From positions 1 through 36,818 of the IMG/VR virus record IMGVR_UViG_3300025892_000055: a DNA stretch of 36,818 nt, one strand, 5' to 3'. The notes beneath the pieces were generated by a model. That model had not been told where the DNA came from. It did no database searches and worked only from the letters and a program-made list of their open reading frames with translations. Shown here in pieces: positions 2,459 through 33,743 of this stretch (position 1 is the stretch's first letter; each line of letters starts with the position of its first letter). Both the position numbers and the translations under genes were made by a program. The DNA is from a virus.

Positions 2459-5400
2459 TTAATTTGTTTGTTGTAAAAGTTCAATCACATTTCGCCTAGT
2501 TGGAGCTGACTTTATTTTTTGTTGCTCTTGTCTTATTTCAGGGAATTCTTTTAACATCTGCATTTTAGCAGCTTTTCTGTATCTTCCTATGATTCTTTGT
2601 AAGTAAGCAACTCTGGGACTAGGTAAACCACTAAAAGATTGTGGGTCTAAACTTCTGTATTCTTTATTGTTTATTAATTTAGTTAAAGATTGCCTTAAAG
2701 TTAAGTTGTTTATTTTAATTTTAGATTGAAGGTCTAGCCATCTATCGTAAGCACTTCTATCGTTAGGACCGTCAAAATTAGTAAGATCAATTAAACCATC
2801 TAGTTTTGTACTAGGAGCGGAGAAACCGTGTGCAACTCTCGCTAGTTCAGTTAACACTGCATCGTTCTTCTCTCCTCCCCACATGATAGGATTAAGAGGA
2901 TTAATAACACCTGCTATACCTTCAAAGTATTCTTGTACAACAGGTTCTCCTAGAGGATTTCTTTTTAAATCCATAGCTACTCCTGGTATTCTTTTAAGAA
3001 TTACATCGGCAAAATCTCTTGCTTCTTTTAACTCTTGATCTCCTGTTATAGATTGACCTTGATTAAGGATGTTAGGAATAAAACCACCTGCTGCCGCACC
3101 TAAATATTTAGCTCCGCTAGTAGACTCAGGATCAAATATTAAACTAAAGAACTTATCAATACCTGCAAGATATGACTTGTTGGTTGCGTTCCTAGTTAAA
3201 GTTAAAGTTAAAGCTGAACTCATTTTTTCAAAGGCAGTGGAATCAATGCTGTGCATTTTACCGTCCTCTAACAAATCTGCCATATCAGCGTAAACACCTA
3301 TAATAGTAGCTATAGGGTCAAGCCTTTGGTAACTCATCCAAGTATCGCGTACTTTTATACTGTAAGGCATATTACCAGCTGCCATCCAAACCTTACGCTG
3401 CCTAAAGTCTTTTGGACCTCCTCCATTAATTCTATCTTTAAAATGATAAACAGAAAAAGCTAAAGCTGTATTAAATAATGTACCTGTAGATAGTTTACCC
3501 CAAGCTTCTGCTCTTGCAATTAAATCAGGTGAACCGTCAGCTTTAACAGCTTTAATCTGTTCTAACAAAGATTTCCTAGTTTTTTCTAACGCAGGTGCTT
3601 TACCGTTTTGAAGGGCATCTATTTTCTTAGCGTACTCTCCACCTTTTAAATACTTAGCTGTGTTGTAAGCTATTTCTCCTGGAGCAAGTAATCGACTAAA
3701 AGAAAACTTTAAGATGTTTGTTGGAGTACGAATAAAAGGAGCGACAATAAAACCTAAAGGTACACCACTTACAAAACCTTGTAGTTTCTGCATTGTTGGT
3801 CCTAACTGTTCTGAGAAAGCTATTTCATCCGCTGATTTAATATTAGGGTCAACCCAATCTCTAGCTAACTCTTCTAAAGCCATGAAATCATTATCCCTAG
3901 AATCCTCTCCTACAAGTTTATTTCTTCTTGCTGTTTCTAAAGCTTCGCTTTGTGCTTGCTGTACATAATCAGCTATTGCTTTTTCTCTCGCAGCTGGTGT
4001 AGCAAATGGACCTTGAACAAATTGTTCTGCTTCTTTAATTAAATGAGCAGTAGAAAAGTTACGGTTAGAGCGAGTTATTAAAGCACTTAAAGAATCTTCA
4101 ACATACTCGGCAACTTTCTTAGGGTCTCTGATTCCTAGTTCGTAAGCTTTTAATCTTAGGTTAGCATCAGCTCTAGTTCTGTATTCATTAAATTTATACA
4201 TCTGATCGACAGAAGTATTGAACCTATTGGGTATCCTTATTGCCTTACCCATGAAATCAATGAAACCCTTTACAGCATCGCTTTCAATGTCCTTACCTCG
4301 TAAACGCTCTACATTTTTAGCTGTGATAGAACCTACACTTCCTCCTGGTGTCTCAACAAAAGCCGACCTTGCATCTCCGATATAATGGTCTCCGCTCTTC
4401 CAAGCATTCAACACAAACCTAGCTAAATCTTTCATGTGCATCCCTTGAGATACAGAGTTAACTACAGCTCTCTTTACATCTGGAGAAGAACTGAACCAAC
4501 CTCCTACATAACGCTCAAAGTTTTTAAGAGCAGAAGACATAGCACCGCCACTAGCATTAACAGTAAGTGTACGAGGACCATACATGATAGAGTTTTTATA
4601 ATACTCTTCTACCATATCCATTAACTTCCCACCTTCAGCTCCTCGGATTACTTTATTCATCTGTATCAAAGTATTCCACAAGTCATCACCCTGTCCGTTC
4701 TTAGCTAACATTATGCCTTCTACCATTTCATCGACAGTCATTCCTCCTCTTTTATTGAGGTACTCTTGTCTTAGCTTAGTGTTAGCTATTTCGTTTGGTC
4801 CTATTCCAATCTTAACATCCATCTGCCTAGATTTAAGACCTCTACCGAACCCACTAGCTAAACCAGATTGACTAGCTTGTATATGTAGTTGTTGTTCTAC
4901 TAAAGTTTTCAAACGAGCTTCAATGGTTTCTAATTCATCTTCACTTATTTTACCTTTTTTGTTTTTGTATTGTTCAGCTACATTTAGTATTTCTTTACCG
5001 TTAGCAGCTAACATAGACTCCAAAGATTTCATCCTAGCTGTGATACGAAACAGAGTGGTTTTATCTTTAGATGCTTGTTGTATTAAAGAGTTCATCATCT
5101 TTCCGTTAGCTCCCATAGCATCTGCTAACTCATTAACTACACCTTCATCTAGCATCTCTTGACTCATCTTTTCCATTTTACTGGAGTCCTTCAAAAGCTT
5201 CTCTGCACCTTGTTCAGCTAAACCAGCTAACTCTTGTGGGTACATACCTTCAGGCAGCTTACCCATCGTCTTAACCATTCCAGTTAATGATTGCTTGCCT
5301 CCAACTCTAAAAGTAGGTGCGTCTGCATCTTTGATTATATCGTCAACAACATCGCTAGGTTTAAAGCCAGGCAACTCAGCAAAAGTCTTACCAAAATCTA

Positions 5401-7573
5401 AAGGTGCTTCTGCTCTCTTAGTTACATTACGCTGTTTTAAGAAGTCGTTGAATATCTTCTGCCTTTGGTCTATACCTAACTTAGATTTTAAAGAAGCAAA
5501 CATATCCTTAAACATAATCGCTACTTCTTGTGCTATTCTTTTAAGTGTACCTGTAGGAGCTAAATCTTTCTCGTCTAACTTTTTCAAGAAAGCATCGGTC
5601 ATCTCCTCTGCAAAGTATTCGTCTACATCTTTAAACCTATAGTTCTCAGATGTGTGCTTACCTTTTAGAAATCTTTCCAGTTCTTTAGGTATTGTTCTTG
5701 TGCGTAATGTAGAAGGATCAACAGTTTCCTCTAAATCAACACCAAAACTTCTGATGTAATCTCTCCTAGCTTTATCAAATTGTTTAGTTAAAGAAGTAAC
5801 ATCAGTTTTAGGAAGATAACGACTAAGTCCATGCCAAAGCTCGTGAACCATAGTTCGTGTAATACCACCCTCGTCTATAACAGATTGTCTTATTTGTAGT
5901 AGGTTGTTACCAAAGTTATAACGACCAGCAGATGGTATCTTATTAGTGACGGATAACGATACATCACCAAACAACCGCTTACCCATTACATCGATAAACT
6001 TCTCTACATCTGCAACATCTTGTGGGTCAGCACCCTTTATAGGGAACTTCTTCATTAACCTACTCTTGAGAGTGTCAGCCCCTTTAGGAATAATATCCAT
6101 CATGGCTTCTTCTTCGTAGGTCTTGAACGGTCTAGGTGTTCTTTCTACAGTAGCGTCAAAGTCTTCTAAAGTTTCGTCAAGTTCTTCTACTCTTCGTTTT
6201 AAATCAGGACTTGTTCCTCTTTCTTTAAACGCAGGTAATTCTGAGAACGGTCTATCTTTCCTTCCTAAGAAGTCTCTAGGGCTTTCTCCCATGCTAACAA
6301 GCTCATCCATTAAACGATCTTCGGGAAAATTTAAACTTTTAGATATTTCTCTGACAGAGTAACCTTCCGTCCACATTTCAATTGCACTACTAAAAACAAT
6401 TCGTTCTTCTTTTTCAGCTGCAACTTCCAGATTTCCCCTGCCAAACCCAGTGTCTTTTCTTCCTTTAATAAAATCCGCAGGGTTTTCTCCTAAACTTATG
6501 AACTCATCTTCTATAAATTTCTGCGGTAAGTTTACTGTTTTAGCTATTTCACTAGTAGAATAACCTTCATCCCACATTCTTATAGCAGTGTTTATTCCTA
6601 CCGCCTCTATGTTTTCTTGAGACACTTCAGGTTGAAACGAAGAATCTTTTCTTCCTCGTATGAAATCTTTAGGAGTTTCTCCTATATCTATTAAGTAGTC
6701 TTCTATTTCCTTATCACTTGTTTTTAAAGTACGACTAATTTCATCGATGCTGTAGCCCTCGTCCCACATGAACAAGCTTTTATTCCGTAATACATCTTCT
6801 GTTGTTAATGGTTCTTGAATGAATTTCTTTCTTTTTCCAAAGTCAGGTAGATCAGCAAACCTTAAATCCTTAGTCTCATCCTCCCACTTCATCATAGCGG
6901 AAGTAACTGCATCTTCTCTGCTTGCTCCTTTATTTATCTCTACATTCTTAGTTTTAATAGCATTCAAACCTGCCATAACAGACTTAGCTACAGCACCCAC
7001 ACCTAACCCTATAAGAGCACCCTCTAAAACATTCTTAGCTCTACCTACTAATTCATTATCATCAGGATCAGCAGCTAGATATTCGGTAATTGGATTCTGT
7101 AAATCAGGAAACTGTTGAATTAAGTTAGCTAGTCTTTCCTCTTGTCCATCAAAAGCTACGAAATCAGAAGCCATCTCAGCTCCTAAGTATCCTTTTAAAT
7201 TAAGATCAGTAAACTTTCCTGGCTTCTTACCTTTCGTTAAAGCTTTAGCAGCCTTACCTGTTACACCTGTTATCTGCCCTGCTCTCGCTGCTTTACCTGC
7301 TGCACTTATCCCTTTTCCTATAACTCCAAAAGGCACAGCAAACTGTGTTAATCCTTCTATTAAACTTCCTGGTACTGTCTGTGAGCGACCAAAGAATCTT
7401 TGTTCATCCCAATCAGGTAATAAATCAAAAGATAAGAAGTCACCTAAATTGTAAACACCATGAGCCATACCTTCTAAACCTCTAACAGGTGCAGCAAAAG
7501 CATCTATCACATAATCGCTTATTCCAAGCTCTTTATCTTCTTTAGGATTAAAATCAAAATTATCTAGCTTCAT
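2459..7573 (-). CDS. Very large internal virion protein (T7 gp16-like) with HTH-like repeats and a zincin motif
   Basis: 1704 aa, well above T7 gp16 (1318 aa). Position (after gp15-like, before fibre) and size identify the ejected inner-core protein that helps DNA cross the cell envelope. I see no lytic transglycosylase domain at the N-terminus, which T7 gp16 has. Visible blocks: residues 1-238 with Gly/Ala-rich hydrophobic segments; three tandem repeats at about 267-312, 331-376 and 397-441, each with MW(D/T)EGYS followed by an (E)I(S/A)K-type second helix and a GRKD ending; an HELWH motif at 577-581 with a following DEYFAEE at 651-657, the pattern of a gluzincin metallopeptidase; then a long helical region to 1704. 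The motif F-(A/S)-(D/E)-L-P-x-F occurs at 239, 443 and 731, at the block borders. It starts 2 bases after the previous stop, without an SD. Confidence 0.88.
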   Translation of the reverse strand: MKLDNFDFNPKEDKELGISDYVIDAFAAPVRGLEGMAHGVYNLGDFLSFDLLPDWDEQRFFGRSQTVPGSLIEGLTQFAVPFGVIGKGISAAGKAARAGQITGVTGKAAKALTKGKKPGKFTDLNLKGYLGAEMASDFVAFDGQEERLANLIQQFPDLQNPITEYLAADPDDNELVGRAKNVLEGALIGLGVGAVAKSVMAGLNAIKTKNVEINKGASREDAVTSAMMKWEDETKDLRFADLPDFGKRKKFIQEPLTTEDVLRNKSLFMWDEGYSIDEISRTLKTSDKEIEDYLIDIGETPKDFIRGRKDSSFQPEVSQENIEAVGINTAIRMWDEGYSTSEIAKTVNLPQKFIEDEFISLGENPADFIKGRKDTGFGRGNLEVAAEKEERIVFSSAIEMWTEGYSVREISKSLNFPEDRLMDELVSMGESPRDFLGRKDRPFSELPAFKERGTSPDLKRRVEELDETLEDFDATVERTPRPFKTYEEEAMMDIIPKGADTLKSRLMKKFPIKGADPQDVADVEKFIDVMGKRLFGDVSLSVTNKIPSAGRYNFGNNLLQIRQSVIDEGGITRTMVHELWHGLSRYLPKTDVTSLTKQFDKARRDYIRSFGVDLEETVDPSTLRTRTIPKELERFLKGKHTSENYRFKDVDEYFAEEMTDAFLKKLDEKDLAPTGTLKRIAQEVAIMFKDMFASLKSKLGIDQRQKIFNDFLKQRNVTKRAEAPLDFGKTFAELPGFKPSDVVDDIIKDADAPTFRVGGKQSLTGMVKTMGKLPEGMYPQELAGLAEQGAEKLLKDSSKMEKMSQEMLDEGVVNELADAMGANGKMMNSLIQQASKDKTTLFRITARMKSLESMLAANGKEILNVAEQYKNKKGKISEDELETIEARLKTLVEQQLHIQASQSGLASGFGRGLKSRQMDVKIGIGPNEIANTKLRQEYLNKRGGMTVDEMVEGIMLAKNGQGDDLWNTLIQMNKVIRGAEGGKLMDMVEEYYKNSIMYGPRTLTVNASGGAMSSALKNFERYVGGWFSSSPDVKRAVVNSVSQGMHMKDLARFVLNAWKSGDHYIGDARSAFVETPGGSVGSITAKNVERLRGKDIESDAVKGFIDFMGKAIRIPNRFNTSVDQMYKFNEYRTRADANLRLKAYELGIRDPKKVAEYVEDSLSALITRSNRNFSTAHLIKEAEQFVQGPFATPAAREKAIADYVQQAQSEALETARRNKLVGEDSRDNDFMALEELARDWVDPNIKSADEIAFSEQLGPTMQKLQGFVSGVPLGFIVAPFIRTPTNILKFSFSRLLAPGEIAYNTAKYLKGGEYAKKIDALQNGKAPALEKTRKSLLEQIKAVKADGSPDLIARAEAWGKLSTGTLFNTALAFSVYHFKDRINGGGPKDFRQRKVWMAAGNMPYSIKVRDTWMSYQRLDPIATIIGVYADMADLLEDGKMHSIDSTAFEKMSSALTLTLTRNATNKSYLAGIDKFFSLIFDPESTSGAKYLGAAAGGFIPNILNQGQSITGDQELKEARDFADVILKRIPGVAMDLKRNPLGEPVVQEYFEGIAGVINPLNPIMWGGEKNDAVLTELARVAHGFSAPSTKLDGLIDLTNFDGPNDRSAYDRWLDLQSKIKINNLTLRQSLTKLINNKEYRSLDPQSFSGLPSPRVAYLQRIIGRYRKAAKMQMLKEFPEIRQEQQKIKSAPTRRNVIELLQQTN

Positions 7574-10279: not shown

Positions 10280-10720
10280 TTACTTCCTCTCTATCTTAAA
10301 TGACTTATAACCAGGATAATTGCAATCTTCAAAAGTAGCACCTAACCAAGTTAACCACCTGACACTAAGTGTATTAGCTTCCATGACATAGTTTGTTAAG
10401 TAGTCAAATCCATCCATTAAGTCATCTATCCACTCTTGTGATTCTTTAACAAATTTCTTCTTTATCGTATAAAATTTCCTAGTACCTAACAACCAAGCTA
10501 TACCTACATTCCCTCTCGGACTAACTCCAAAGCAAGCTAATAGACCGTCTTGATCTGTCTTGACGCTGTAGCATTTACTGCTTGATTCAAATGATCCGTA
10601 CACAGCATCTCTAGGGTGGTGCATCAATCCAATACACTCCATCATATCCTCTTCTCGTAAGTCCTCATATAACATAGGAGCATCGAGGTCTGCCATACTA
10701 GGTTCAATTCTAACCTCCAT
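10280..10720 (-). CDS. Internal virion protein A / acetyltransferase-like (T7 gp13-like)
   Basis: 146 aa from the ATG at 10720. An in-frame ATG lies 33 bases upstream, inside tail tube B, but only the 10720 start has an SD (CAAGGAG, 8 bases upstream), and it gives a length close to T7 gp13 (138 aa). The N-terminus MEVRIEPSMADLD and the segments GLLACFGVSPRGN and GIAWLLGT fit the reduced GNAT (N-acetyltransferase) fold seen in gp13 homologues; whether it keeps enzymatic activity cannot be told. T7 gp13 is needed for virion morphogenesis. The start overlaps the tail tube B stop by 11 bases, suggesting coupled translation. Confidence 0.82.
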   Translation of the reverse strand: MEVRIEPSMADLDAPMLYEDLREEDMMECIGLMHHPRDAVYGSFESSSKCYSVKTDQDGLLACFGVSPRGNVGIAWLLGTRKFYTIKKKFVKESQEWIDDLMDGFDYLTNYVMEANTLSVRWLTWLGATFEDCNYPGYKSFKIERK

Positions 10721-13700
10721 ATCTTCTACTCCTTGATATAATTGTTGATTCAAACTCTGCTGCTAACAGTTTCACTGGTAAAGCACTAGAAGATTTAATT
10801 TCGATAGTGGCATCATTAGGTTGAGCTTGTACGGCAAACTTAAAGAATCCAGTCTCAGGTGTGAATTTACTAAGTGTACTGACAGAAGCTAACAAACTTG
10901 GGTTGTAAGTGTAAGTGTATTTATCTCTAAATTTAGGTGTTACTTCTACAGTGAAGTGTCCTGTGTCTGCATATTCAATACTACCGTTACGAATAGTTTG
11001 GAATGTGTAATCAGATGCTGACCGTCCACCTCTCTCTGTAGGTTGTTTTAAGTTCTGCTTAGAGAACCTGTATAACATATCATATTCAAATCCTATGAAG
11101 AAATCATTGAAATCTAAGTACTCATATCCTTCTTGCCATAGCGGAGCAGCAGAAGCAAAAGCACCAGCTAATCCCCATTCAGGACTTGAGGGAGGTTTAT
11201 TAGCATCAGTAGATACATGACCTGTAGTACATACATATAACACTTCTTCAGTGTAGCTCTGCCCACTAGACCAAGACGCTGCTGCTTGAGTTGTTGTTAT
11301 AATCCTCCAATAGCTTTGCCAATCAGCACCTTCTCCAGGCTTCTTAGCTGCGTCTGATGTATGTGTTTGTGTACAGATGTATTTAATATTTCCTACCTGT
11401 ACAGGATCAGCACCATAACTAACAAAGTCAGCAATCAATCCTTTCACCACTGCTCTTGTATCGTCTGTGTTATCTATGATTAATTCTCTTTTGTTACCAT
11501 TCTTAGTATATAACGACATACCAGTTTGGAATTTAAACCCACTCTGTGTACCTATTTCAGTAGCGTTGGATATGTTCTGTCCGTTAATATTAACAGTTGA
11601 ACTCACATACCAACCTAGAAAAGTTAAGAAAGTAGAACTACCTGGAAGTCTATGATCTAACAATAAAGCATAGTTCTTATCACTTTCAACCAATCCATTT
11701 TCCATAGGAATCGTTTCAATGTAAGTACCTATACTGTCGGTAGTTATAACATAAAGTGTAGACTCAATGAAGTAGAAACTTCTTACATCCTTAGCAAAAG
11801 AGAAAGTCATCCAAGCACTCTGTATCTTCTCATTCCCTTGCCAAAAGTACTTATATACATACAGCTTCTTATAGTCACTATCTGATTGTACAACCACCAT
11901 ATTCTCAGCTGCACTACCTTCCATCCTGACTATGTTAGTAGGTATGTACTTATTTATCTGTTCTGTTATCTCAGCTGATCTGTATGTCTCAGTGTTATTA
12001 TCTACTGTGTATTCAAGCAGTCCTTCAAAGTTATTTCTTTTAAAGTTAAAGTATATATAACTACTAAGTGCTAACGGACGAATAGTATCCGATACATCAA
12101 ACTCAGTCACAGGTGATATAGTAACAGTTTTAGGTGTTAACAAATCTCCACCTCTAAGTACAAACTGAGTCTTCGGAGAGAACAACATCAACTTCTCTTG
12201 GAAAGCTTGTGCGTGTTTAAGAATACTAATCTTAGTGTGTGATACACCTACATCTATTGGAGCAGAGTCTAACAGAGATTGTGTGGTAGTCCTGAAGAAG
12301 TTAAAGTATTCATCTGCTTCAGACATTATAACTCCATCGTTAACCAAGAATCCTAGTCTATTCTTAAAGAAGAAGATGTCATTGATCGTGTTGTTAGTAA
12401 AAGAAGGAAATGGATTACTAAAATCATCCCCTGCATTCCTACCTTCCCACTCAACAGTTTTTAAAGTAAACCCTGTAATCTTACCTGTGGACGGAGTAGG
12501 TACTAACCTAACAGGCATTGTGTCTTCATCTAAGAAAGAATCTATACCAGTAGAAAGTCCTTTGTCTGTACTATCATTTTGCCATCCTGATGTTTCTATC
12601 CAACTTCCTTCTCCAAACTCTTCGTTGTCCTTGGTCTTAAATTGTACATAGTAATCATCTTGGTCTAAATCTGCGTCTCCAATAATCTTAACTCTAAATA
12701 AATTGTAACAAGATTTAGGAAGATCAGTGATGCTGTCTACTTCTTTGTAAATAACACCTAATCCTTGATTAGCTAATCCATCAGTGACTCTAACTCTAAA
12801 ATCTGTATCAGCAGAAATCTTTATAACACTCCCTTGTCTATCTGTAGTGAACTTAGCAGAACTAGAAATAGTTACACCTGATAGAGTAGGGAAAGTACCT
12901 GTTCCACCATCGCTGTCATAACTTGTAGTTTTATAAGTAGTTTTAGGTCGTCTGTCTATTGATCTGATATGGGTAGTTGTCGTGGTGTCTCTAGTTGTAG
13001 CTTTTATTATTAACCTGAAACCACTTTTATCCACTGCGTTAGGGTCTCTATAAGATGTAGATAAAGTACTGCTAAACCCTGAACCTTTATGAGTTATCGT
13101 AGAAGAAGTAACTTGATTTCCACTTATCGTTAACACACCTCCAGCACCGCTTCCTATTACAGCACCGCTACTGTTATATTGAAATACACTAAAAGTGTAA
13201 TCCCTGCCCCTCCTGTAGCTACTAAATGTATCAGGAAATCCTGAACCTCCTGTTAAACTCAAAGCATCTAAAGTGCCTCCACTTGCTGTAAGCTCATCTA
13301 TACAAGATAGTAAATCTTTAGCTATAAACTCTGTGTCAGCATGTGCTCCTTTAGGTTCTACATCTGCTGGTCCACTAATATAAGTAGCAGGAGGTACTCC
13401 TGCGTTACCGTGAGCTGTGTTAGTATAATCGTGATGAGCACCAGAAGTATTACCTTGTAAAGAAGAAACTAAAGGAACTAACTGACCGTCTAAGTAAATA
13501 CTGTAAGCTTTCTCATAGTCTCCTAACTTAACAAATATCAAAGCATCTTTATCTAAATCTCTAGTTTTTAAATCGGCATCTGTTTTCTTAGCTACAGTCT
13601 TCTTTTTATTAACAAGAAAGGTAGAGTCTGCAATGGTTAACGCTCTAAGGTCTTTGACAGGGTTAAAGTCACCTGACGATACAGATAGATAAGCTTGAGC

Positions 13701-14024
13701 AGTAGCGTCCTCTACAGTAATAGTCATTGGTCCACCGTCTTCTAAATCAAAAGCTTTTAATCCGTTACCTCTGTCGTAAGTAATAACATATCTATTGTCA
13801 TTATCTCTATCAACATAGTGAGTAAATATCTCAGCTGTAAGATTAGTACCTAGCTGTGCGTTAACTTGATTTAAGAACCTACTGTTAGGTCTCTTAACAA
13901 GTCCCTCTACTACAGTTGACCAAGCATTTATCTGCTCATCACACTGTCCAGGGTATCTTAAATTGTCAGGTTGTTGTGATACACCTTGGGCAAGGTTAGG
14001 AATACTGGTGTTAAGCAGTGGCAT
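10710..14024 (-). CDS. Tail tubular protein B / nozzle (T7 gp12-like)
   Basis: 1104 aa; T7 gp12 is 794 aa, so this version carries about 300 extra residues. The N-terminus MPLLNTSIPNLAQGVSQQPD, followed by RYPGQCDEQINAWSTVVEGL, is the hallmark of the family: QGVSQQP and the start of the nozzle propeller. The protein forms the distal tail tube and carries the fibres. Around residues 870-950 there are two similar units (YICTQTHTSDAAKKPG...W and YVCTTGHVSTDANKPP...W) that look like small CBM5/12-type carbohydrate-binding modules. The Thr/Ser/Gly-rich region at about 190-400 may be another insertion. The start has a modest SD (AGGTAAAG) and lies 2 bases after the tail tube A stop. Confidence 0.93.
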   Translation of the reverse strand: MPLLNTSIPNLAQGVSQQPDNLRYPGQCDEQINAWSTVVEGLVKRPNSRFLNQVNAQLGTNLTAEIFTHYVDRDNDNRYVITYDRGNGLKAFDLEDGGPMTITVEDATAQAYLSVSSGDFNPVKDLRALTIADSTFLVNKKKTVAKKTDADLKTRDLDKDALIFVKLGDYEKAYSIYLDGQLVPLVSSLQGNTSGAHHDYTNTAHGNAGVPPATYISGPADVEPKGAHADTEFIAKDLLSCIDELTASGGTLDALSLTGGSGFPDTFSSYRRGRDYTFSVFQYNSSGAVIGSGAGGVLTISGNQVTSSTITHKGSGFSSTLSTSYRDPNAVDKSGFRLIIKATTRDTTTTTHIRSIDRRPKTTYKTTSYDSDGGTGTFPTLSGVTISSSAKFTTDRQGSVIKISADTDFRVRVTDGLANQGLGVIYKEVDSITDLPKSCYNLFRVKIIGDADLDQDDYYVQFKTKDNEEFGEGSWIETSGWQNDSTDKGLSTGIDSFLDEDTMPVRLVPTPSTGKITGFTLKTVEWEGRNAGDDFSNPFPSFTNNTINDIFFFKNRLGFLVNDGVIMSEADEYFNFFRTTTQSLLDSAPIDVGVSHTKISILKHAQAFQEKLMLFSPKTQFVLRGGDLLTPKTVTISPVTEFDVSDTIRPLALSSYIYFNFKRNNFEGLLEYTVDNNTETYRSAEITEQINKYIPTNIVRMEGSAAENMVVVQSDSDYKKLYVYKYFWQGNEKIQSAWMTFSFAKDVRSFYFIESTLYVITTDSIGTYIETIPMENGLVESDKNYALLLDHRLPGSSTFLTFLGWYVSSTVNINGQNISNATEIGTQSGFKFQTGMSLYTKNGNKRELIIDNTDDTRAVVKGLIADFVSYGADPVQVGNIKYICTQTHTSDAAKKPGEGADWQSYWRIITTTQAAASWSSGQSYTEEVLYVCTTGHVSTDANKPPSSPEWGLAGAFASAAPLWQEGYEYLDFNDFFIGFEYDMLYRFSKQNLKQPTERGGRSASDYTFQTIRNGSIEYADTGHFTVEVTPKFRDKYTYTYNPSLLASVSTLSKFTPETGFFKFAVQAQPNDATIEIKSSSALPVKLLAAEFESTIISRSRRYGG
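10729..10735 (-). promoter_or_regulatory. Shine-Dalgarno that sets the gp13-like start
   Basis: CAAGGAG on the minus strand ends 8 bases before the ATG at 10720. It lies within the last codons of tail tube B and decides between two in-frame starts of the gp13-like gene. Confidence 0.75.
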
Positions 14025-18770: not shown

Positions 18771-19001
18771 TTAAATTACAGCGTCAAGGTCGTACCACTC
18801 AAGACCACTTACAACATCTTTTATACTTTCTTCAGTATATTCTGTTTTACCTAATAGGTCGAAGGGTTGCGTACCTTCATATTTAACTATCGCCTGAGAA
18901 CCATCCAAAGAATATCTCAACAACTCAGAGTTGGTATTTAAAACTGTATCAAAATCTAAACTAGATACTTCAGACTGATTTATAATTACATAGCTTATCA
19001 T
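18771..19001 (-). CDS. Hypothetical 76-aa protein of the virion accessory cassette
   Basis: Small acidic protein with no recognised motif (MISYVIINQSEVSSLDFDTV; SGLEWYDLDAVI at the end). Its ATG overlaps the TGA of the LamG-like gene as ATGA, so the two are translationally coupled. It lies immediately before the portal gene. A role as a small chaperone or attachment partner for the LamG-like protein is possible by context only. Confidence 0.7.
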   Translation of the reverse strand: MISYVIINQSEVSSLDFDTVLNTNSELLRYSLDGSQAIVKYEGTQPFDLLGKTEYTEESIKDVVSGLEWYDLDAVI

Positions 19002-19777
19002 GTTCTTTGCCCTGTTGTGTCTAACATACTACTAGATGAAAGCGTACCATTGTTACCGTTACCAGATTTGTCAGTAATAGTCGTTCCTGTGTCTCCCTCA
19101 AAAGTCCACAGCCCGATTAAATTACTTGTTGGAAACACACCTCCTAAAATACTACTTATCTCATTATTTGATAACGCTTTATCATAAATAGCTACATCAT
19201 CTAATCTTCCGTCTAATCTACTACCAACACCATCATTCCCAAAGGTTAATGGAGCATCGTTTGTTGTTATTGTTGAAGCTCCCTGAGTGCTGCTTAAATT
19301 TCCGTTTATATAAAACAAAGTAGAAGTTCCTGAATTAAAAACTATAACTCCGTGATACCATGTTCCTGTACTTAAAGTAGTAGTGTCAGTTCTTAAAACT
19401 GATCCGTCAAAACTTACCATTTTGTTTCCGTTTGTGTACATAACATAGTTAGTTCCACCAGCATCTCGTTTGCCTACCAGACCTCTAAAACCTGAAGTGA
19501 CATCTAGTTGAAACCAAGCACATATAGACATATCACCAGTAACTTGTAATGATAGGTCATCAGGAATAGTAGCTACATCTGTACTACCATCAAAGGTTAA
19601 AGTGTTTGTGCCTACACCTACAGAAACTCCGTCATTGAAGTAGGTAAGATAGTCACTACCATCTGATACTTCGATAGCTTTAGTATCTGATCTAAATATA
19701 CAAAGACCTGTGTTGCTTGCTGCTGGTGCTGCTGAATCTCTAGCGGATTGTGATGCGTAACTTGTTAATGTACTCAT
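18998..19777 (-). CDS. LamG / concanavalin-like virion appendage protein
   Basis: 259 aa. Residues about 55-240 have the pattern of a LamG-like (Laminin_G_3) jelly roll: NTLTFDGSTDVATIPDD, MSICAWFQLDVTSGFRGLVG, STGTWYHGVIVFNSGTSTLF, the LDGRLDDVAIYDKALSNNEI strand-helix, and GLWTFEGDTGTTITDKSGNG. This fold commonly binds carbohydrate. The N-terminal 50 residues (ending SDTKAIEVSDGSDYLTYFND) resemble a fibre-associated module also seen in the preceding 72-aa gene. Likely a surface decoration or host-adsorption protein; the ligand is unknown. Confidence 0.82.
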   Translation of the reverse strand: MSTLTSYASQSARDSAAPAASNTGLCIFRSDTKAIEVSDGSDYLTYFNDGVSVGVGTNTLTFDGSTDVATIPDDLSLQVTGDMSICAWFQLDVTSGFRGLVGKRDAGGTNYVMYTNGNKMVSFDGSVLRTDTTTLSTGTWYHGVIVFNSGTSTLFYINGNLSSTQGASTITTNDAPLTFGNDGVGSRLDGRLDDVAIYDKALSNNEISSILGGVFPTSNLIGLWTFEGDTGTTITDKSGNGNNGTLSSSSMLDTTGQRT

Positions 19778-32773: not shown

Positions 32774-32844
32774 GGTTCTCTATATAGGAAGCCAAGGGAA
32801 AGGATTAAGATAAGTGCGTACATCAATAGCATTTCTAAGCTCAT
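32770..32844 (-). CDS. 24-aa membrane micropeptide between methyltransferase and zinc-ribbon genes
   Basis: ATG at 32844 overlaps the methyltransferase stop (TAATG) and its TGA at 32770 overlaps the next ATG (ATGA). The two junctions exactly fill the gap between the flanking genes, which makes translation very likely. The product is one hydrophobic helix, MSLEMLLMYALILILSLGFL plus YREP. It could be a real membrane peptide or simply a translational bridge; the hydrophobicity favours a product. Confidence 0.66.
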   Translation of the reverse strand: MSLEMLLMYALILILSLGFLYREP

Positions 32845-33743
32845 TATATTAGTTCCAGTTGTTTAGTTGTTTTAGGTTTTATTGGTTCATCTGCGTATCT
32901 AATTTCATTTAAAATGTGAGCAATAACATCGATAGTCCATCCATTACCAAGCATCTTAAACCTTTGGGTATTACTTACTCCTTCAGTATAGTTATCTGGT
33001 ACACTTTGCAATCGTTCACATTCTACAGGTGTGAGTCTACGCTTTAGTTCTTTAATGACTCCATAAGGTACTCCTTTGTACATATTAGCAGTTAAACAAG
33101 CTGACTTGCCATCTAATGGATTTGTGTGGTATTCCCATCTAGGTTTTCCATTCCTTAATCTACTCATATAATCAATAGCTTTATCGGAAAGGTAAAACTT
33201 TTCCTCCACTTCATCCTCTAATATATCTTTTAACACAATACCTCGATCGATAGGTTGTACAACATTAGGTATATTAGTCCAGTAAAGTCTTGGTCTATTT
33301 TGTGCAGTAAGTAAGCGAGAATTAATTGCAATAGGTTCAACTCCTAAAGTGTCGGTTATTATTTTCTCCCATTCCTTTTTCATCTTTACATTTTCAAGTA
33401 AAAAGTAGGTTGGTTTGGTTTCTTTCAGTACACGTACAAACTCCCAAAACAATTTACTCTTACCTTCCATACCACTACCATCACCAGCGTTCGAGAAAGA
33501 TTGACAAGGACTGCCTCCAATTAACAGGTCTATCCTGGGCAGGTCACTACCTTTTACATCCAGGACACTTCCAATATGTTTTGTATTAGGATAATTCTTT
33601 CTTGCTATCTGCATTGCGTACGGATCAATCTCACTAGCAAAGTAGTTGTTAACTTTAATACCTAAAGTATCTAAAGCGAGTTGCCCACATGACATACCAT
33701 CAAATAACGAAAGTACATTGTCTATTTCTATATCTATTTTCAT
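32844..33743 (-). CDS. C5-cytosine DNA methyltransferase
   Basis: 299 aa with a full set of m5C methyltransferase motifs: I (LSLFDGMSCG, 11-20), IV with nucleophile C80 (GGSPCQSFS), VI (ENV, 117-119), VIII (QNRPRLYW, 148-155), IX (RRLTPVECERLQSVPDNYTE) and X (FKMLGNGWTIDVIAHIL). The target-recognition region between VIII and IX is short, so the site cannot be predicted. The ASEIDPYAMQIARKNYP part resembles the DNMT3-like phage group. No matching restriction enzyme is visible, so it probably protects phage DNA from host restriction. Coupled upstream (ATGA) and downstream (TAATG). Confidence 0.95.
   Translation of the reverse strand: MKIDIEIDNVLSLFDGMSCGQLALDTLGIKVNNYFASEIDPYAMQIARKNYPNTKHIGSVLDVKGSDLPRIDLLIGGSPCQSFSNAGDGSGMEGKSKLFWEFVRVLKETKPTYFLLENVKMKKEWEKIITDTLGVEPIAINSRLLTAQNRPRLYWTNIPNVVQPIDRGIVLKDILEDEVEEKFYLSDKAIDYMSRLRNGKPRWEYHTNPLDGKSACLTANMYKGVPYGVIKELKRRLTPVECERLQSVPDNYTEGVSNTQRFKMLGNGWTIDVIAHILNEIRYADEPIKPKTTKQLELI

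Follow-up and report, generated by a model that had tools for sequence, protein, structure and literature searches.

The large proteins that T7-like phages eject are usually viewed as parts of a channel and of DNA entry. Among them, gp16 of phage T7 combines an N-terminal transglycosylase with a C-terminal DNA-binding part (PMC8954989). A further type, the polyvalent protein, is known from phages and conjugative elements; it is large, comprises multiple domains and is expected to be delivered together with phage DNA (Iyer et al., 2017, PMC5512222). In the parts of that study on which we draw, an HExxH zincin is proposed to release the other domains, with ART and ParB among the cargoes, and self-processing is proposed for polyvalent proteins in general. 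The same parts note that DNA-binding domains, 'other HTH domains' (HTH, helix-turn-helix) among them, occur infrequently, and they propose neither a joint motif nor a cut site.

A gp16-like protein of a marine T7-like phage

The window, i.e., the whole stretch of DNA analyzed here, is a viral record of 36,818 bp from a marine T7-like phage. This phage encodes a T7-type RNA polymerase and, based on capsid and RNA polymerase, its nearest annotated relative is the uncultured phage MedDCM-OCT-S45-C18 (Autographiviridae, Ayaqvirus). One ORF of 1704 aa (the window protein; Table 1) matches PHROG 6651, an internal virion protein family, over aa 1191-1479 (E 2e-40), and its tblastn matches are internal virion proteins D of Autographiviridae such as pelagiphages, roseophages and others. 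Genes in the gp14 and gp15 positions lie before this ORF and a T7-type tail fibre gene lies after it; the gp14-family gene is two genes away, and the nozzle protein gene is a neighbor as well. Thus, homology and gene position both fit the gp16-like identity that the initial annotation had given to the repeat-bearing protein. Based on its homology to gp16, the window protein would be delivered into the host. A transglycosylase domain, which is N-terminal in T7 gp16, was not detected in the window protein by Pfam (E 1).

In two related contigs, a pair of overlapping ORFs takes the place of a single gp16 frame (L009, 3-1970 and 1916-4282; L026, 2151-5060 and 5024-6661). The point of the split differs between the two, and assembly or sequencing errors are the probable cause. 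Elsewhere, the window encodes a concanavalin A-like lectin (Laminin_G_3) protein close to the portal gene (18998-19777), a C-5 cytosine DNA methylase (32844-33743), here in a T7-like phage, and a nozzle protein (10710-14024) that exceeds with its 1104 aa the family models of 793-794 positions.

Table 1. Features of the gp16-like gene, with their positions in the window.
Feature	Residues (aa)	Position	Strand	Basis
gp16 / internal virion protein D-like ORF		2459..7573	(-)	PHROG 6651; tblastn; gene order
N-terminal backbone	1-238	6860..7573	(-)	Common to array-less relatives (97% with L002/L010) and, distantly, to named phages
Boundary motif 1, FADLPDF, predicted cut site	239-245	6839..6859	(-)	
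HTH-like unit 1	264-314	6632..6784	(-)	Unit HMM; Pfam HTH_40
HTH-like unit 2	328-377	6443..6592	(-)	Unit HMM; Pfam HTH_7/HTH_23 on array segment
HTH-like unit 3	395-444	6242..6391	(-)	Unit HMM; Pfam HTH_38 on array segment
Boundary motif 2, FSELPAF, predicted cut site	443-449	6227..6247	(-)	
Zincin-like metallopeptidase-type domain	480-730	5384..6136	(-)	Invariant HELWH and EYFxEE; polyvalent-protein tblastn match
HELWH, predicted zinc site	577-581	5831..5845	(-)	Alignment of relatives
DEYFAEE, predicted third zinc ligand	651-657	5603..5623	(-)	Alignment of relatives
Boundary motif 3, FAELPGF, predicted cut site	731-737	5363..5383	(-)	
C-terminal gp16 backbone	738-1704	2462..5362	(-)	Matches to internal virion protein D from named phages

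Fold and charge of the three repeated units

Three tandem repeats are present at 6251-6775 on the (-) strand, corresponding to residues 267-441 of the window protein, and they carry the motifs previously reported for them: MWDEGYS at aa 269 and 333, MWTEGYS at 400, and GRKD at 307, 371 and 437. Each unit comprises about 50 aa and the spacing between units is 64 and 67 aa. The best ungapped self-alignment over 45 aa scored 144 (BLOSUM62), while 60 shuffles gave a mean of 30.4 and a maximum of 42, ruling out a chance origin. Unit-to-unit identity is 40-51% at the amino acid level and just 50-62% at the DNA level. Consequently, recent duplication is ruled out as well, and the units go back to old duplications rather than to an assembly artefact.

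About ten IMG/VR contigs have a conserved array in this same gene and, among viral contigs, it occurs in this gp16-like gene family only. Compared with the array of relative L011, dN (0.16) is well below dS (0.98). The array was found neither in annotated phage records (tblastn, E 0.01) nor in GTDB genomes by a pattern scan, a kind of search that diverged copies can escape, and one weak match was obtained among plasmids by tblastn (E 0.02). PADLOC gave no match for the window protein.

The HTH-like fold proposed in the initial annotation is supported by several lines of evidence. With the array segment (206 aa) as query, Pfam models exceeded their cut-offs for HTH_40 (45 vs. 27 bits), HTH_38 (28 vs. 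27), HTH_23 (25.9 vs. 24.6) and HTH_7 (24.7 vs. 23.8), and HTH_40 did so with the whole window protein as well. A profile built from an alignment of 17 units was compared with PDB sequences and matched gamma-delta resolvase best (E 0.0035), covering the first two helices. In AF2 models of nine arrays the helices are at the expected places, with unit cores at a pLDDT of about 70-90 (mean 73.2) and a poor relative placement of the units (pTM 0.54). Foldseek against viral models delivered two matches with E < 0.001, the first being an HTH psq-type protein (E 1.6e-4), followed at lower rank by GcrA, Mor and homing-endonuclease proteins. The same search of the whole array against the PDB returned nothing significant (best E 0.14), the non-significant list being rich in Pax, Tc3, Mos1 and similar DNA-binding proteins. 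Structure prediction and structural comparison thus speak for the fold in the helical units and the viral HTH matches, but not in the PDB search. Taken together, the units of the window protein likely have an HTH-type fold. In the literature on ejection proteins, one ejectosome paper applies the term HTH to capsid decoration helices.

Among solved structures, the HTH of gamma-delta resolvase (PDB 1res, 1gdt) is the best match to the units and shares MW-x-x-G ... ISKT-x-N with them. In contrast to the resolvase, the array lacks a recombinase catalytic domain and consists of three tandem copies, and the third helix of its units is acidic where the resolvase has ARSTV. The net charge of this third (recognition) helix is -4, -2 and -3 in units 1-3 of the window protein and ranges from 0 to -4 across aligned homologous units, with neutral unit-1 copies in L003 and L012. 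Over its 206 aa the array has a net charge of -15, while that of the whole window protein is -8. The sole notable basic feature is the GRK of the GRKD element, of which G-R is invariant in 17 of 17 aligned units. Consequently, the DNA-binding array that the initial annotation suggested is not supported as stated: by the refuting criterion of that annotation, the acidic recognition helix speaks against an ordinary DNA reader, and it weakens the idea that the array grips DNA. Since the recognition helices are acidic, we consider binding to a host or phage protein, or competition for a DNA-binding protein, more probable than conventional DNA reading.

Resolvases and invertases have minor-groove arms, of which the invariant G-R of GRKD is reminiscent. 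Together with the resolvase-type HTH sequence, the Pfam HTH families and the DNA binding of T7 gp16-C, which is not sequence-specific (PMC8954989), this feature fits a DNA-binding role in which the array would retain phage DNA inside the core, or the end of the entering genome at the ejectosome, in addition to the binding by gp16-C. However, such a role appears rather doubtful given the acidic third helices of the window units and of most homologous units, the charge of the whole array, and the fact that the array is missing from close relatives with backbones 92-97% similar outside the cassette. Because these relatives lack it, the array is not needed for ejection.

A variable slot, a zincin-like domain and their joints

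The array is an optional, exchangeable cargo beside the zincin-like domain, bracketed by a repeated linker motif, an aspect that was absent from the initial annotation. Relatives whose similarity in the rest of the protein reaches 97% (designated here by L numbers) lack the array, and the occupants of the slot between the gp16 N-terminal region and the zincin-like domain differ among them: an HTH array, ART-PolyVal, weak ParB-like stretches, coiled coils, one module of unassigned kind, or none. These classes stem from seed searches, while transitive clustering merged nearly all cargoes through shared flanks. ART-PolyVal scores 38 bits in L016 and 42.3 bits in L082 (cut-off 31.2); in L016:3217-4962, L082:3843-4712, L057 and L065 it occupies the slot, ahead of a coiled coil and the zincin. 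L016 also gave a marginal LmuB match in PADLOC (E 9e-4). ParB-like stretches in the cargo region are weak, i.e., below cut-off (L015, L089:4422-5006 and L092:3-722), the same module of unassigned kind is found in L006 and L047, and the slot is empty in L007, L005, L062 and L067. Coiled-coil and empty versions are common and, since they exist, the slot need not always hold an effector. In L088:3-1565, LPD37 (large polyvalent protein associated domain 37) exceeds its cut-off upstream of a distant zincin, and the joint motif there lacks the proline. As in polyvalent-type proteins, several functionally distinct domains thus vary between relatives (slot cargoes, ART-PolyVal, LPD37).

Cargo and adjacent zincin-like domain have moved between divergent gp16 backbones. 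DNA identity between the window and L017 is 0.54 in the N-terminal part, 0.94 in the zincin and 0.40-0.50 after it, and L003 and L012 behave alike (0.51, 0.94 and 0.41-0.49). The reverse pattern is seen between the window and L002 (0.94, 0.65 and 0.92-0.96), where the cargo differs. At the amino acid level, the window and L011 share 76% identity in the array and 89% in the zincin, compared with 25-42% in the backbone.

HELWH and EYFxEE are invariant in 22 aligned relatives of the zincin-like domain. Employing tblastn, one match was obtained in cellular genomes (E 2e-6, with TRTMVHELWH in common), in a Rhizobiales MAG, and none in phage records. The matched protein (L110:3-8444, 2813 aa) carries DnaJ and LPD38 and is consequently a polyvalent protein. 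This match supports a zincin kinship of the window domain, as distinct from its activity. Pfam gave nothing above cut-off for four zincins, the zincin alignment profile obtained chance matches only in the PDB, and an AF2 model from the 22 relatives was unusable (pLDDT 46.9). Given these results, support for the predicted protease activity comes from HELWH, EYFxEE and the distant match.

The joints of the cassette carry the motif F-A-[DE]-[LM]-P-x-F. All three copies in the window protein are located at joints, flanking the array on both sides and behind the zincin, while 0.05 are expected per shuffle, and the 1704-aa ORF is the only motif-bearing one in six frames of the window. In its strict form the motif occurs 106 times in zincin-bearing proteins (103,678 aa) and not once in the other ORFs of the loci (152,207 aa); the independent events are fewer than 106, since the count includes related sequences. 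Across 73 distinct zincin ORFs, 53 of 69 proteins have a loose form upstream and 62 of 71 have one downstream, and all loose matches (124/124) fall inside the cassette region. Most of the inspected proteins without it have degenerate forms such as YADLPEL or KEMKDF, and in ART-bearing proteins the motif is missing on the N side of the ART. Among the eight homologues without zincin that were examined, neither the six from named phages nor L028 has a strict match, and the Ayaqvirus homologue has no joint motif, its single loose match (SAEFPEL) lying close to the C-terminus. In L110, SQVPGWEP comes directly after the HELWH domain; it aligns with FAELPGFKP of the window protein and might point to a wider P-x-[FW] joint.

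The simplest reading of this placement is that the copies of the motif are where the zincin cuts; the motif could also be a docking element or a structural linker. The latter belongs to an explanation in which the slot is a structural spacer that tunes gp16 packing in the core, with the motif as linker or docking element without proteolysis. T7-like cores are tightly packed, and the common coiled-coil and empty versions would fit such a spacer. However, we regard it as unlikely, since ART-PolyVal, an enzyme family of conflict systems, occupies the same slot, no variation is seen in the zincin-like residues, cargo and zincin move together as one cassette, and the strict motif is absent from the zincin-less homologues examined. 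In a further explanation, which is very improbable, the FAELPxF linkers would persist for their DNA homology, as anchors for recombination, and modules would be swapped with no role for a protease: the joints roughly coincide with recombination boundaries and copies of the motif resemble one another in part at the DNA level, but 21 bp are short for homologous exchange, the Leu codons vary (CTA, TTA, TTG, CTG) while the amino acids hold, and the motif persists in zincins of 46-60% identity.

Proposed role and comparison with known systems

With moderate confidence we favor the reading that the array is a protease-releasable, interchangeable HTH cargo in an ejected, polyvalent-type gp16-like protein. 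The three units would then be tandem tri-helical, resolvase-type HTH domains that form an interchangeable cargo module, and cargo and zincin-like domain would travel together as a cassette by recombination. We predict cleavage by the zincin at the F-A-[DE]-[LM]-P-x-F linkers. Such cutting would free the array and the zincin itself from the gp16 backbone, either in the virion or on entry, and the released array would exert its effect in the cell that has just been infected. More tentatively, one might speculate that gp16 of T7-like phages serves as a modular injection vehicle: horizontally traded cassettes of cargo and self-cutting zincin, with cut sites marked by a short linker code, would deliver alternative early effectors, among them an acidic triple-HTH array directed against host transcription or against DNA-binding proteins. 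If gp16 carries exchangeable, protease-released payloads, this would represent a general route for such phages to act on the host before phage gene expression, and the joint motif would be a simple sequence handle for finding such payloads and testing their release.

Compared with T7 gp16, the window protein shows the same gene order, a gp14-type neighbor and C-terminal homology to internal virion protein D, but about 490 aa of cargo and zincin are inserted. Six named homologues of 1201-1303 aa comprise neither cargo nor zincin. T4 Alt and other injected ADP-ribosyltransferases find their counterpart in L016, where ART-PolyVal occupies the same slot of an ejected-type protein, whereas the window protein has the HTH array in place of an enzyme. 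With the polyvalent proteins, as far as the parts of that description considered here go (PMC5512222), the family of the window protein shares the multidomain organization, the expected delivery, a zincin-like domain, and ART and weak ParB-like cargoes. In contrast to them, its scaffold is a T7 gp16, its HTH domains form a tandem acidic array, its zincin matches no Pfam model, and its cargoes alternate in one defined slot with a recurrent linker motif at the joints. On the favored reading, the HTH array is an unusual cargo of a polyvalent-type ejected protein.
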